Positions 13,927 through 59,890 of a stretch of 64,000 bases of DNA are shown here, piece by piece. The notes under the pieces are model-generated. The model was not told the DNA's origin and searched no databases. It worked only from the letters and a program-made list of their open reading frames with translations. The stretch lies in the NCBI GenBank assembly GCA_019635795.1, contig JAHBYV010000011.1, positions 62,001 through 126,000 on the forward strand, written 5' to 3'. The stretch comes from Rhizobiaceae bacterium (GTDB lineage Bacteria; Pseudomonadota; Alphaproteobacteria; Rhizobiales; Rhizobiaceae). The translations under genes and the position numbers were made by a program. Each line of letters starts with the position of its first letter. Within the stretch, counting starts at the first letter, position 1.

Positions 13927-14640
13927 CTATTTGCGCAGTTGGTCGCGCAACGCAGCGAGCTTGGCGAACGGAGAATCAGGGTCAAGGCGAACGGGCTGCT
14001 CCTCACGCGGCTTGTGCTGAAATCCGGGCTTGCCCTTGGTGTTGTCATGGCGCTGCGGTCGGTGCCCGCCTTCGTGCTGCTTGGCATGGTCGGGGCGGCG
14101 GGGCTTTCCATGGCGGGGTTGTTGCTCCCGGTTCTGCTGACCGTCCCGCTTGTACTTCTGGCCCTCGTGACGGTTGCCCGATGCATGGCGTGGACGGTGG
14201 TCGAAACGCTGTGGACGCCACAAGACGACAGGCTTTGGCGCTTCTTCTGCTTCCCCGGCGGTTTCGGCGCCAGGGGCGGATTCGACGGCTGCAGTCACTT
14301 CCGGCTGAGCAACTTCGGAAACAGGCACTGCGGCTACGGCTTCTTCCGTTGTTCCATCGGCCTGTGCATCTTCCACCGGAGCGTCGCTCTGCTGTTCAGC
14401 TGCGGGCTCTGGAGCCTCGCTAACGGGGCTTGCGTCGAGAGCATCCAGCTTGGCTTTCACCTCCTCGGCAGGGCGCGGTTCGCCACGATAGCCGAGCCCC
14501 TTCAGTATCTGATCCATATCGTCGGCTGTGGCACCAAGGATAGACATCATTGCGGGCGTTACCATGAAAGCGTTCCCGTCAAACGCGCCATCAGGGCGAG
14601 TTCCGGTTCCTGCTTTCCACGCCAGAGCCGGGCGAATGAG
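13927..14640 (-). pseudogene. Displaced C-terminal part of the SUV3-like helicase (after a one-base frameshift)
   Basis: From about 14640 down, this frame continues the helicase: LIRPALAWKAGTGTRPDGAF, then MVTPAMMSILGATADDM and a ILKGLGYRGEPR segment, all normal in the C-terminal region of rhizobial homologs. It then becomes an Ala/Glu/Pro-rich linker and a strongly basic His/Arg/Lys/Gln tail (about 100 residues, e.g. QQNREQQPRHGKPRRP), probably disordered and RNA-binding. It lacks its own start and ribosome site. The distance from the helicase ATG to this stop is 3,001 bases, exactly one more than a whole number of codons; removing one base gives 999 residues. Confidence 0.8.
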
Positions 14641-16927
14641 GGTCTGCCAATCTTTCCAGAATGTCGACGCGCACGGCGCGCTTGCCAAGCACGCGATAAC
14701 CCGCAAGGCGGTAAAATTCAGGTTCAAATGCGGGATCGACCACGAGCGAGGTCCGTCCGGTGGAAAGCGCGTTTACCACATCGCCGAAGCCTGTTTTGTA
14801 CTTCCCATCATTTTTGAGTGCCCATAGCAGCGTCACCAAGCCCGCTGGAGCGGGCTTCAAAAGAGCCGGCACAAAAATGTGGTATGCGCCAAACCTCACA
14901 CCCAGACGCCGCAGGGCTGCACGGCCATCCTGATCGAGCGACTTCATGTCTTCGGCGATTTCCCGACGATTTATGATGCCAAGGTTCTCAACCAGACGGA
15001 AAGCTATGCCGCGCGCAATGCCTGAGAGCTGCTCGGCCTGCTTCAGGTCAAGCAGCGACTTGAGTTGGGATTCAATCTGATAGTTGACGAAGCGCTCTGC
15101 ACGGGCAGCAACCTTGTCGCGGGCCGGGCCGGTCAACTGCTCGTCTGCAAGAAGAACAAGGCGAGGCTTAAGTATATCTTCGCCATCTGTAAGCGTAGCG
15201 ATTGGCGCACCGATCCAGCGGATCGTTCCATCAAGCGCCAGGGCGATGTCACCATTCGGGCCCGAAGAGAAGCGCTCAGCGCGCGTTTCGAATTCAGTTG
15301 CGAGCGCTTTTTGCGCTGCGTTACGCACTGCTTTGGCATCTTCCCCGCCAGCGCTCTGGTCGGCGGTAAAACGAAAGCCCTGTAGTTCTCCAACATGGTG
15401 ACCTTCTACCATGACGGTTCCTGCAGCGTTTATTTCAGCTTCAAGCATAATGTTCTCTCTGAGGCGGCGCATGAGCACGGAAGTCCTGCGGTCTACAAAG
15501 CGTTTCGTCAACCGCTCATGTAACGCATCAGACAATCGATCCTCAATTTCTCGCGTCTTTTCTTGCCAATGGAGCGGATCGGCGAGCCAGCGGGGCCGGT
15601 TTGAAACAAAAGTCCACGTTCTGATCTGTGCAATTCGATGCGACAAGGTGTCGATGTCGCCTTCGGTCGTGTCGGCACGGCGCACCTGTTCGGCCATGTA
15701 ATCTTCATCAACATGACCGCGCTTTGCCAGATCGAAATAAAGATTCGCGATGATGTCCGCATGTTGTGCGGGCGCTATCTTGCGATAGTCGGGCAGGGCG
15801 CAAACTTCCCAAAGAAGAGCTACGCGCTCGCGCGTGGCAGCCAGCGCCTTTACGTCCCCATCTTTCGACAATTGTTCCAGCGCCTGCGCGTCCACGGCAG
15901 GCGGCGCGCGCGTAAGACCCTCGACGGGCGCATTCGTTTCAATTGAACGTTTGAGCGCATCGATGCTGGCATAGTCAAACTGCGCGGTGCGCCACTGGAG
16001 CACCTTCACCGGGTCGAAATCATGAGATTCCAGCCGCTGCACCAGTTCTTCATCGAATGGATCGACCCGACCCGTGACGCCGAATGTTCCGTCGCGCGTA
16101 TGGCGACCGGCACGGCCTGCAATCTGACCGAGTTCGGCAGGGGTCAACTGCCGGTACTGATACCCGTCAAACTTCCGGTTCTGTGCAAAGGCGACGTGGT
16201 CAACGTCGAGGTTGAGGCCCATGCCGATTGCATCGGTCGCGATCAGGTAATCGACGTCGCCAGATTGATAAAGGGCAACTTGCGCATTGCGGGTTCGCGG
16301 GCTCAGCGCGCCCAGCACCACCGCGGCACCGCCCTGCTGGCGCCGGATAAGTTCTGCAATGCCGTAAACTTCATCAGCAGAGAAAGCCACCACAGCCGAG
16401 CGCCGCGGAAGGCGGGTCAGCTTCTTTGACCCGGCATAGGCGAGGTGGGAAAGGCGCGGGCGTGTCAGCACTGAAACGCCGCGAAGCAACTTTTCCAGAA
16501 TGCCGCGCATCGTCGGCGCGCCCAGCAACAGGGTTTCCTGACGCCCTCGCAAATGCAGAATGCGGTCTGTGAATATATGGCCGCGTTCGAGATCGCCCGC
16601 CAATTGCACTTCATCGATTGCAACGAAAGCGGCATCCGTTTCGCGCGGCATGGCTTCTACCGTGCAAACCGAATATTTCGCGCCCACCGGCTGAATCTTC
16701 TCCTCGCCGGTAATCAGGGCGACCTTGTTTGCGCCGACCTTTTCGCAAACCCGCTGATAGACTTCTCGCGCAAGCAGGCGCAGCGGCAAGCCAATGACGC
16801 CACTTTCATGGGCCACCATGCGTTCGATTGCCAGATGCGTCTTGCCCGTATTGGTGGGGCCAAGAATGGCAGTGACGTCGCGCCCCGACAAAATAAGGGG
16901 CTGGTTGCGTGCGGTCTGAACGTTCAT
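14591..16927 (-). CDS. SUV3-like DEVQ-box RNA/DNA helicase, truncated by frameshift
   Basis: ATP-driven helicase of the SUV3/MgpS-like group in alphaproteobacteria, probably acting on structured RNA. Walker A GPTNTGKT (residues 23-30), DEVQ box (105-108), and motif VI within LGQIAGRAGRHTRDGTFGVT are intact, so the motor is complete. A SUV3-type C-terminal helical domain follows. After VDILERLAD the frame changes: 18 non-native residues (PHSPGSGVE onward) lead to a stop at 14591, while the true continuation is in another frame. The extra base lies in the G run at 14640-14642. Either a real mutation or an assembly error. Confidence 0.85.
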   Translation of the reverse strand: MNVQTARNQPLILSGRDVTAILGPTNTGKTHLAIERMVAHESGVIGLPLRLLAREVYQRVCEKVGANKVALITGEEKIQPVGAKYSVCTVEAMPRETDAAFVAIDEVQLAGDLERGHIFTDRILHLRGRQETLLLGAPTMRGILEKLLRGVSVLTRPRLSHLAYAGSKKLTRLPRRSAVVAFSADEVYGIAELIRRQQGGAAVVLGALSPRTRNAQVALYQSGDVDYLIATDAIGMGLNLDVDHVAFAQNRKFDGYQYRQLTPAELGQIAGRAGRHTRDGTFGVTGRVDPFDEELVQRLESHDFDPVKVLQWRTAQFDYASIDALKRSIETNAPVEGLTRAPPAVDAQALEQLSKDGDVKALAATRERVALLWEVCALPDYRKIAPAQHADIIANLYFDLAKRGHVDEDYMAEQVRRADTTEGDIDTLSHRIAQIRTWTFVSNRPRWLADPLHWQEKTREIEDRLSDALHERLTKRFVDRRTSVLMRRLRENIMLEAEINAAGTVMVEGHHVGELQGFRFTADQSAGGEDAKAVRNAAQKALATEFETRAERFSSGPNGDIALALDGTIRWIGAPIATLTDGEDILKPRLVLLADEQLTGPARDKVAARAERFVNYQIESQLKSLLDLKQAEQLSGIARGIAFRLVENLGIINRREIAEDMKSLDQDGRAALRRLGVRFGAYHIFVPALLKPAPAGLVTLLWALKNDGKYKTGFGDVVNALSTGRTSLVVDPAFEPEFYRLAGYRVLGKRAVRVDILERLADPHSPGSGVESRNRNSP
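14638..14644 (-). other. Frameshift site in the helicase gene
   Basis: Minus-strand GACCCTCATTCG codes Asp-Pro-His-Ser in the first frame. Dropping one C gives GAC-CTC-ATT-CGC, Asp-Leu-Ile-Arg, joining ILERLAD to LIRPALAW. The change is in a three-base homopolymer (plus-strand GGG at 14640-14642). Confidence 0.75.
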
Positions 16928-17046
16928 CGGAAAGGGTTTTGCCGAACTCCTGCGGCGCTATCGGGTTTTTCCACACATAGGCATTTGTGTGCCTTCGTGA
17001 AAGCATATTCTTTGCCGGTGCCGCTCCGGACTTTAACAAATGGAAC

Positions 17047-17091
17047 GAGTCTGGAACGAATCAGCGACGAATCACTGACTCCGCACGATTC
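17047..17091. promoter_or_regulatory. Five phased GANTC (CcrM) sites in 45 bases
   Basis: GAGTC, GAATC, GAATC, GACTC and GATTC start at 17047, 17058, 17069, 17077 and 17087, spaced 11, 11, 8 and 10 bases, close to one helix turn. By chance one site in about 256 bases is expected. Confidence 0.8.
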
Positions 17092-17346
17092 CTGCTTTGT
17101 TCACCGCTATATGTAGTTAGCGTTGTCGTGTGGTTCACCAGATGCTGAATCGCTATCGATGCTTGTGACACGAATTCACTGTCTGGCATTAACCTTTAGG
17201 GAAATTTTTCGGTGTCTCCCCTTGGGTGCGATTACAACCAATTGAAAAATAAAGAAAATCTTAATCGAGTTTAATGGCGTGTTAAGCGTTCGGCGCCAGC
17301 TCTGTTAACACTTCGAACCAAGGCGGAACGAATCGGCGACGAATCA
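17053..17346. repeat. 22-base direct repeat, two copies with one mismatch
   Basis: Copies at 17053-17074 and 17325-17346, both GGAACGAATC-R-GCGACGAATCA, each with two GANTC sites 11 bases apart. Only one base differs (A or G). Confidence 0.85.
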
Positions 17347-17423
17347 GATAAAGCTTGTTGTTCTTTATTTGTTCGATACCAGATGTAGTGGTGCAGGCTG
17401 CTTATAGGCCTAAAATTCACAGT

Positions 17424-17432
17424 TTATCCACA
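17424..17432 (+). promoter_or_regulatory. DnaA box
   Basis: TTATCCACA matches the high-affinity DnaA-binding consensus exactly. Single perfect copy in this noncoding stretch. Confidence 0.55.
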
Positions 17433-17504
17433 GGCTGACTTGGTGCGGAGACCGGCAAACAAGCCCAAACGTTAACTTTTAAGGGAAAGCTTTGCGAGCG
17501 GCTG

Positions 17505-19037
17505 CTAACGATCGGTGACGATCTTGACCTTGAAGCCGGCAGGAATCTGGTTGCCTGTCGGCATGCCGTTCAGAACCCGGAAGAGTTCTTCCTTGCGATC
17601 GACGCCAACCATACGGCTGGCAAGAGAGCCAACTGTGTCGCCCGCTCTGGCGGTGACAATCTTGATCCGCAGCGGCTTTAGCGCTGCTTTTTCGCTGGCC
17701 GAAAGCAAGCGGAAACTATCACTGACGGCGCGAGCGACCGTCTCCAGTTTGTCCGAAGCAACGGGAGCGGCTGTGAGCAGCCGGTAAACCTGCGAACCAG
17801 CCCGTATAACTGCGATGTCGAATTGCCAGTTGTCAGCCCGTGCCCGTGCTATTGCCGCCTCATTGCCGTTGATGGTGACTGTGCGTATCGTTTCAGGCTC
17901 AAGTCCCGTGACCCAGCCGCTGCGCAGGTAGTCGGGCAATGAGATGCTGCTTTGTAACGCTACCCCGTCAAACCGGATGGCAATATTTCCCGGCCCGTTC
18001 GCCGTAACGGCTGCTGCACTGTTGTCGATGACAAAACCTTGCGGCACCGAAAAGGAGACGCCCAGCTCAGGATGCAGGAATGTGTGCCCGCGCACATAGC
18101 CTTCTTCGGCCGTGTCGCCAAACAAAAGCCCGTCAATGCCAGCCAGATAAGCATCGCGATCAACCGTACCGACACCTTTTGCGCCAATGTCCCGTGCATG
18201 GCGCTCTGCCAGATCAATGCGCTGGGGTGTATTGGGATGGGTCGCGAGAAAGTCGAGGCTTGCGTCAGTTGCGCCGGATACACTGCGCAAATTGCTGTAG
18301 GCGGCCATCGACTGAAGGAAGCGCACTGCTGCATAGGGATCGAATCCGGCCTGACCGGCAGAGCGGATGCCGATTACATCTGCCTCCAGCTCCTGATTGC
18401 GCGAAAATTGTGCCAGCCGGAGCTTGCCGCGTAATGCGGTTACTTCTGCGACGGGGCTTGCGCCAAACAATTCCGTTGCGGCCTTTGTGGCAAGCTCTGC
18501 CTCTGCCTCCGCCTGCTGGCGTGCGATACCGTGGTTTGCAGTGACGTGCCCCATTTCGTGGGCGAGAACGGCAGCGAGTTCTGCTGAATCGTTTGCCAGC
18601 GCCAGAAGCCCGCGCGTGACGTAGAGATAGCCGCCGGGCAGCGCGAATGCGTTGACGTTCGGTGAGTTAAGTATGGTGATGCGATAGGCCTGCCCAGGAT
18701 TTCCGGCGACCGTCGTGAGATTGCCCACCACCTTCGCCACCATGCGTTCAAGCTTGGGATCGGAATACTCGCCGCCATAGGTGGCCAGAATCCGGGGATG
18801 CTGGGCGCGGGCCAGCGCCGCCAGCTTGTTGTTCCGCTGGACTGAGTCGACGGTGACCGGGTTGTTCGAGGGCTGAAACGCAGATTCGTCAACGCGATTT
18901 GGGTAGACATCAATGCCCTGGCACGAAGCGAGGAGCACCGCCATTCCAGCCGCTATCGTGCCGCGACGCCATGCGCCGCAGCCTGCCAGCCTGTTCCCAA
19001 ACTTGCGGGAAATGCCCGCCACGCTGTTCCCTTCCAT
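17505..19037 (-). CDS. M48-family metalloprotease lipoprotein (BepA/LoiP-like) with C-terminal LysM-like part
   Basis: Periplasmic zinc protease probably tending outer-membrane protein assembly. The N-terminus has a signal with lipobox LLASC (Cys39). Zinc ligands are HEMGH (160-164) and Glu216 in NQELEAD. A central region after residue 300 (about 130 residues, LGVSFSVPQGFVID) is of unknown role, and the last 50 residues (ARAGDTVGSLASRMVG ... IPAGFKVKIV) look like a LysM-type glycan-binding fold. An alternative start would shorten the pre-lipobox part, as 38 residues is long. Minus-strand, 83 bases past thiQ. Confidence 0.88.
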   Translation of the reverse strand: MEGNSVAGISRKFGNRLAGCGAWRRGTIAAGMAVLLASCQGIDVYPNRVDESAFQPSNNPVTVDSVQRNNKLAALARAQHPRILATYGGEYSDPKLERMVAKVVGNLTTVAGNPGQAYRITILNSPNVNAFALPGGYLYVTRGLLALANDSAELAAVLAHEMGHVTANHGIARQQAEAEAELATKAATELFGASPVAEVTALRGKLRLAQFSRNQELEADVIGIRSAGQAGFDPYAAVRFLQSMAAYSNLRSVSGATDASLDFLATHPNTPQRIDLAERHARDIGAKGVGTVDRDAYLAGIDGLLFGDTAEEGYVRGHTFLHPELGVSFSVPQGFVIDNSAAAVTANGPGNIAIRFDGVALQSSISLPDYLRSGWVTGLEPETIRTVTINGNEAAIARARADNWQFDIAVIRAGSQVYRLLTAAPVASDKLETVARAVSDSFRLLSASEKAALKPLRIKIVTARAGDTVGSLASRMVGVDRKEELFRVLNGMPTGNQIPAGFKVKIVTDR

Positions 19038-22424: not shown

Positions 22425-22472
22425 TCATTCCATCCTTCTGTTTCGGAGTGAATGTGCGTCGGTTTACCGAGC

Positions 22473-22557
22473 ATCTAATCCCTCCGCCGGTACAAACCGG
22501 ATCAGGTTCAGCGGGTTGGCCTTGTGCCTCTCAGCCGCATGTGCGGCACCCCGTTAG
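22473..22557 (-). ncRNA. TPP riboswitch (THI element) controlling thiBPQ
   Basis: On the minus strand the conserved aptamer blocks appear in order: GGGGTGCC, GGCTGAGAGGC, CCCGCTGAACCTGATCCGG, and GCGGAGGGA. Binds thiamine diphosphate in the nascent mRNA. The GGAGGGA arm and the short distance to the thiB start suggest control of translation initiation, as no clear terminator hairpin with a T tract follows. Confidence 0.95.
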
Positions 22558-22649
22558 AGCGAAAAAAGTCATAGGACGGTTCGCTTGCCTTCGCAAGCCC
22601 GTTATCAACCCTCTGGCCTAGCAGCCATTGGCCTGATAGAGCCGCGCCA

Positions 22650-59729: not shown

Positions 59730-59890
59730 ATTGGCGCTCTGGGCTTCCCGGCAGGAGTAATATTTCCCCGGGGCCTTATTGATCTCGAAGGGAGCTGTCC
59801 CTGATTGGACCCGTGGGTTCTTTCATATGGCGCCCACCTACTTTGTAGGTTCCCGGGATCAACCTCTCCACCGGTTGTCTGGACGCCACT
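59730..59890 (+). ncRNA. ssrS: 6S RNA
   Basis: About 160 bases in front of the 5-formyltetrahydrofolate cyclo-ligase gene, the same neighbour as in E. coli and many alphaproteobacteria. The ends pair (GGCG at 59733-59736 with CGCC at 59884-59887; CCGGCAGGAG with CTCCACCGG), leaving a long stem with an open central bubble. The middle has the expected paired arms (CGAAGGGAGCTGTCCC). 6S RNA holds the housekeeping RNA polymerase in slow growth. Ends are estimates. Confidence 0.75.

Follow-up and report, generated by a model that had tools for sequence, protein, structure and literature searches.

Upstream of a gene for a Suv3-like helicase in a Rhizobiaceae bacterium lies a conserved element which combines a rigid core of inverted half-sites, a near-invariant CCGAATC and boxes about three helical turns apart, and which stands divergent to the helicase gene in many families. 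It carries a dense array of GANTC, the cell-cycle methylation motif and target of CcrM. Our tentative reading is that it controls the helicase gene from upstream as a composite region, sensing the replication state through CcrM methylation together with an NrdR-type repressor; we give this slightly less than an even chance.

A GANTC cluster within one intergenic region

The DNA analysed (the window, 64,000 nucleotides) was initially annotated as containing a cluster of eight GANTC sites in 299 bases (17047-17345), which lies within a single intergenic region (Table 1). The eight sites start at 17047, 17058, 17069, 17077, 17087, 17147, 17330 and 17341, and the annotated chance expectation of about one agrees with our value of 0.72 (Poisson P for eight = 9e-7). 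Five sites do fall within 45 bases at spacings of 8-11 (Poisson P = 8e-8). GANTC is scarce in the window (156 observed versus 266.5 in shuffles), and therefore both densities are far beyond chance. When the intergenic region was shuffled 5000 times (first-order Markov), neither was ever reached. Among other gapped palindromes of the same form (n = 15), only CGNCG and GCNGC, which are about 4-5 times commoner than GANTC, also attain five in 45 bp (with 9 and 11 in 299 bp, respectively); the remaining ones have at most three in 45 bp and at most eight in 299 bp.

Equal density elsewhere would have made the cluster unremarkable. None was found when 864 kb of the 3.26-Mb genome (26.5%; the window and 40 further 20-kb stretches) were ranked for GANTC density, the runners-up (six in 299 bp and four in 45 bp) being both located at hemE. 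The cluster upstream of hemE (G000:C23:114050-114314; L294 14050-14314) has six sites in 265 bp, four of them at spacings of 9, 8 and 10; its GACTC-TTA-GAATC is also found upstream of hemE in three Mesorhizobium records. Since hemE is accompanied by nearby parS sites, we take this region to be oriC of the genome.

The proposal that the methylation marks would face the same side of the DNA holds for the array, whose five sites, calculated with 10.5 bp per turn, occupy a sector of about 100 degrees on one helix face, but not for the sixth site, which is on approximately the opposite face. Beyond the five-site array, helical phasing is carried by one family: with it, P = 0.003; without it, the phasing vector length drops from 0.271 to 0.155 (null mean 0.097).

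Table 1. Features of the window and their coordinates
Feature	Positions	Strand	Remarks
Suv3-like DEXQ-box helicase gene	14591-16927	-	Pfam DEXQc_Suv3, E 7.8e-27; Helicase_C, E 2.8e-9
Intergenic region	16928-17504		577 bp; contains the GANTC cluster
Candidate helicase promoter, CTTTCA-N17-CTATGT	16975-17003	-	CTTTC and CTATGT columns kept in 74-81 of 81 rows
Element copy 1	17040-17119	+	profile match 74.7 bits, E 1e-20 in own genome; G000:C3:79040-79119
GAAC-N7-GAAC direct repeat	17043-17057	+	LexA-box-like; each GAAC half unchanged in all 81 rows
Five-site GANTC array	17047-17091		spacings 11, 11, 8, 10
Rigid core, GAACGAA ... CGAATC ... TTTGTTC	17054-17102	+
GAATCACTGACTC	17069-17081		two GANTC sites 8 bp apart; first (17069) near-invariant
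Box 1, CTATATGTAG	17107-17116		NrdR-operator-like
Box 2, CCAGATGCTG	17138-17147		spaced 31 bp from box 1; deviates twice from the box pattern
Element copy 2 (tandem)	17314-17392	+	43.8 bits, E 4.6e-11; about 272 bp from copy 1
DnaA-box-like TTATCCACA	17424-17432	+	beyond copy 2; read directly
M48 peptidase gene	17505-19037	-	its end bounds the intergenic region
TPP riboswitch	22462-22563	-	upstream of thiamine transporter-like genes
6S RNA	59733-59888	+

Architecture and conservation of the element

The core follows the pattern GAACRAA, CCGAATC, TTYGTTC and measures 49 bp from GAAC to GTTC. Its outer half-sites, GAACRAA and TTYGTTC, are inverted and 42 bp (four helical turns) apart. Of the 22 diverse rows in alignment A1, 20 show the core free of gaps; a 1-base insertion is found in one of the others, and the remaining row (L118) is incompletely covered. 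The distance from CGAATC to GTT is 25 bases at 89 of 103 loci and 26 bases at the other 14, and even a stretch with 36% G+C (L154) retains the core. The two copies in the window, a duplication that went unmentioned in the initial annotation, share a 42-nt direct repeat at 79%. Among the matches listed, tandem units about 130-310 bp apart are present in many genomes and number up to five if weak matches are counted. By eye, GTTAAC is seen 3' of the tandem units in L239, L241, L244, L249 and L258, often together with a GTYYC-N5-GRRAC inverted repeat. A repeat family or transposon finds no support in the genome under study, where the 18-base repeat (up to two mismatches) is confined to this locus.

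Judged by the helicase, the closest named relative is Mesorhizobium denitrificans (92% identical, among the best 80 of 262 loci). Of 262 loci that encode a relative, the named set comprises the best 80 and hence close kin, mostly Mesorhizobium and Aminobacter. Within these best 80, the exact 11-11-8-10 array lies upstream of the same Suv3-like helicase at 72 and the first three array sites are present at 77, with 121-254 bp separating the three-site array from the helicase start codon. In an alignment of 81 rows (window included) the eight sites are GANTC in 80, 80, 80, 76, 77, 81, 57 and 67 rows, so that six of the eight are kept in at least 76 and the cluster has not been lost in close relatives.

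Outside this circle, a pattern search allowing up to three mismatches retrieved the element from 24 of 397 genomes of the host order, order and class being assigned here from the nearest named relatives. The exact five-site array upstream of the same helicase also occurs in families f18, f20 and f44, whose helicases are 66-73% identical over the aligned part. The element profile matches at least 122 of 160 genomes of the host order and 30 of 241 genomes of the host class, several of the latter weakly (E up to 0.0096); the helicase is within the fetched stretch at 26 of these 30 class loci. Of the 122 element loci fetched, 110 have a divergent helicase gene, 12 have none and no other arrangement was seen; at the level of genomes, 97 of 103 possess a divergent element-helicase copy. 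Six copies from three families (L239-L244) have no helicase within 4 kb, their genomes carrying a helicase-linked copy as well; two of them (L239 and L240) sit between convergent genes. L182 and L171 likewise have no helicase near the element. Because at least six copies occur without it, the element is not strictly a helicase element. By eye, a glutathione-S-transferase-like gene is located near the copies in L242, L243 and L244; in L182 the element is upstream of an acyl-CoA-dehydrogenase-like gene, and a similar gene starts after the element in L165 and L175. The RAMA domain (CcrM-type) was found in 24 of 25 genomes with the element and in 48 of 52 where no element was reported; these near-equal proportions make the presence of CcrM/RAMA uninformative as a co-occurrence test.

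One best-scoring copy per family (31 families) was used for the counts of LexA and DnaA motifs, box offsets, phasing and site conservation. The family counts (31, then 48) omit L088, L089, L100-L107, L187, L188, L190 and L239-L244, and the count of gene arrangements includes all loci.

Apparent selection on GANTC sites

The element profile was built from 22 mostly GANTC-rich rows, and the element loci are mostly its best matches. GANTC enrichment was therefore recounted using the lowest-scoring copy per family after the addition of 20 weaker loci. In 36 families of the host order the core has 99 GANTC sites versus 21 expected, and the poorly conserved 300 bp downstream of it have 97 versus 46 (about 2.1-fold). 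There is no excess toward the helicase (27 versus 33), and the more distant flanks are depleted (11 versus 66 and 26 versus 65, or 0.17-0.40 of expectation). The excess in the core is due in part to conservation of the core as such; the downstream excess is less ambiguous, although GANTC is in general commoner in intergenic DNA (PMC3973325). As enrichment in the host order extends to poorly conserved sequence, selection there seems to act on the GANTC sites themselves. At the fifth site of the array, the middle base in 19 families of the order is T in 13, A in five and G in one, and the four defining bases are kept in 14-18.

Outside the order (12 families) the core again shows an excess of GANTC (20 versus 4.6 expected), and the downstream region does not (10 versus 14). 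The CCGAATC site, equivalent to 17069, reads GANTC in nearly every family, both inside the order (18 of 19) and outside it (11 of 12), where the other array sites occur in 0-4 of the 12. The element is thus not merely a methylation cluster: in the host order, an older core with one near-constant GANTC seems to have been extended by the array and the downstream sites. The support for selection on GANTC agrees in part with the initial annotation, whose methylation-sensed switch or structural site stays a hypothesis.

NrdR-like boxes

Downstream of the core is a box of the palindromic pattern CWANATNTWG, often followed by a second one 31 bp further on. Box 1, taken at the best of the offsets tried, scores at least 8 of 10 in 27 of 31 families, and in 42 of 48 families when the lowest-scoring copies are used. 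For the second box, a score of at least 8 is attained at the 31-bp offset in 11 of 31 families, compared with at most two at each of 39 other offsets; with the lowest-scoring copies the figures are 11 of 48 families at 31 bp and four at the next best offset, 30 bp. Box 2 is weak in the genome under study and scores at least 8 at 31 bp in only 11-13 of the 48 families. The final G of this box doubles as the first base of the GANTC at 17147, a site kept in all 81 aligned rows. In eight of 31 families, among them f1, box 2 ends where a GANTC starts, and in a ninth (f20) the site is offset by two bases. In two non-helicase copies of one family (L242 and L243) the stretch between the boxes looks unrelated by eye, and the spacing is the same.

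The nrd locus of the same genome carries AACACTATATTTAGTGTT and AACACAAGATAGAGCGTT, also 31 bp apart. Spacers of 15-16 bp, corresponding to three turns from centre to centre, are the common case for NrdR box pairs according to PMC12051234. Two palindromic boxes about three helical turns apart, as in NrdR operators, are what the 31-bp peak across families represents. An adjacent ribonucleotide reductase gene was not found, the single reductase match in the genome being on contig C1 and the element on C3. NrdR is encoded in all 35 genomes tried, which says nothing about binding.

Possible functions of the element

We infer methylation, binding and regulation from this conserved architecture as follows. 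CcrM would methylate the GANTC array, and passage of the replication fork would leave its sites hemimethylated. Hemimethylation could alter the binding of at least one protein, be it a factor recognising GAACRAA, a box-binding NrdR or NrdR relative, or possibly GcrA, and transcription of the helicase gene would then track replication and the deoxynucleotide state. Methylation and the box-binding protein would be physically connected most directly at the GANTC overlapping box 2. Against such a control region stand the copies without a helicase, the distance of a candidate promoter devoid of GANTC, the weakness of box 2 and the missing downstream excess of GANTC outside the order. A main rival is a stand-alone nucleoprotein locus, where the phased GANTC platform would bind a reader of (hemi)methylation and report or titrate the replication state, the helicase being a frequent and not a necessary neighbour. 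Tandem repetition, up to five units among the matches listed with weak ones counted, copies between convergent genes, and the fact that the sole comparable cluster in the 864 kb, with spacings of 8-10 bp, is at hemE/oriC all point in this direction. Yet the helicase gene is adjacent in a single orientation at 110 of 122 loci and a DnaA-box array is absent, leaving this explanation unlikely, if worth keeping in mind. Titration of DnaA was rejected, since exact boxes occur downstream in only three of 31 families (0.2 expected), with 10 one-mismatch boxes versus 4.6 expected. Rather unlikely, too, is that throughout the order each tandem unit (phased GANTC, inverted GAACRAA pair and NrdR-like boxes with a CcrM site) forms one replication-state sensor independent of the neighbouring gene, in which fork passage and deoxynucleotide level would be sensed at the same nucleoprotein complex, possibly through a new reader of GANTC methylation.

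The element might instead be an ordinary GcrA/CcrM-dependent promoter, either of the helicase gene or of an opposite transcript. In CcrM-regulated promoters GANTC lies within the -35/-10 region. Here, the array is about 44-88 bp upstream of the conserved candidate -35 of a sequence which we take, from its form, to be the helicase promoter; the candidate itself (16975-17003) has no GANTC, the nearest being at 17047, and the NrdR-like boxes are more than 100 bp upstream of it. There is a precedent for GANTC conserved upstream of a gene, as it is in 57-81 of the 81 aligned rows: in Caulobacter, according to PMC3973325 and PMC3708114, conserved GANTC near genes marks methylation-controlled promoters. 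On the other hand, predicted GcrA control of replication and division genes is described in PMC7987155 as well conserved within Caulobacterales and not well conserved outside them, parC and gyrB being scored for it in all 23 species compared. On balance we consider an ordinary promoter of this type quite improbable. The GAAC-N7-GAAC repeat suggests another alternative, a LexA/SOS-type operator with incidental GANTC, at which LexA or a relative would bind and DNA damage would induce the helicase. The alphaproteobacterial LexA box is GTTC-N7-GTTC, and 22 of 31 families have the perfect direct repeat in their core (1.0 expected); six of 10 genomes have such a repeat within 500 bp upstream of recA. 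However, it was not found upstream of recA in the genome under study, the copies from outside the order that were looked at keep one GAAC and not the direct repeat, and the downstream GANTC and the box pair would be left unexplained; such an operator is distinctly unlikely. A small structured RNA gene or leader is very improbable: GAACGAA and TTYGTTC could pair, and a distant copy (L175) folds better than its own shuffles (z -2.65), but neither the element in the window (z 0.55 and -0.98 for the two strands) nor L174 (z 1.46) does so, the covariation term of RNAalifold is 0.03, no Rfam match was obtained at E up to 1, and the sequence between the boxes is by eye not conserved, so that folding, covariation and Rfam provide no support. 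As to a chromosomal replication origin, GANTC, a DnaA-like box and AT-rich stretches would be in keeping with one. The chromosomal oriC adjoins hemE/parS, though. In three relatives hemE and the parS sites are grouped some 0.2-0.5 Mb from the element, and in the genome under study they are on a different contig, so that an origin here is extremely improbable.

Relation to known systems and significance

A description of the element was not found in one library of open-access papers. It resembles the ftsZ and mipZ promoters of Caulobacter in having conserved GANTC upstream of a gene; there, methylation raises promoter activity, and the key site is formed by a conserved CGACTC on which the promoter critically depends (PMC3708114). 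The present element differs in having up to five phased sites plus more, located upstream of the candidate promoter, often in tandem and in tens of families. With NrdR operators, as at the nrd locus of the same genome, it shares paired CWANATNTWG-type boxes 31 bp apart. Unlike them, it has no adjacent reductase gene, its boxes are degenerate and preceded by a 49-bp core, and a CcrM site lies at box 2 in 8-9 of 31 families. The GANTC run at hemE/oriC is likewise dense and short-spaced (9, 8, 10), but its sequence is different and AT-rich and it is not among the matches of the element in the genome. SeqA binds clustered GATC at oriC of E. coli, where methylation sites are also close and roughly in helical phase; the methylase is different, and the locus described here is not an origin.

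The element provides a specific, rigid and often repeated GANTC arrangement in an order other than Caulobacterales (at least 122 of 160 genomes), next to the gene for a bacterial Suv3 relative. It thereby offers a defined fragment for asking whether anything besides GcrA reads GANTC methylation, and the same fragment may show whether a single operator combines methylation with NrdR control.
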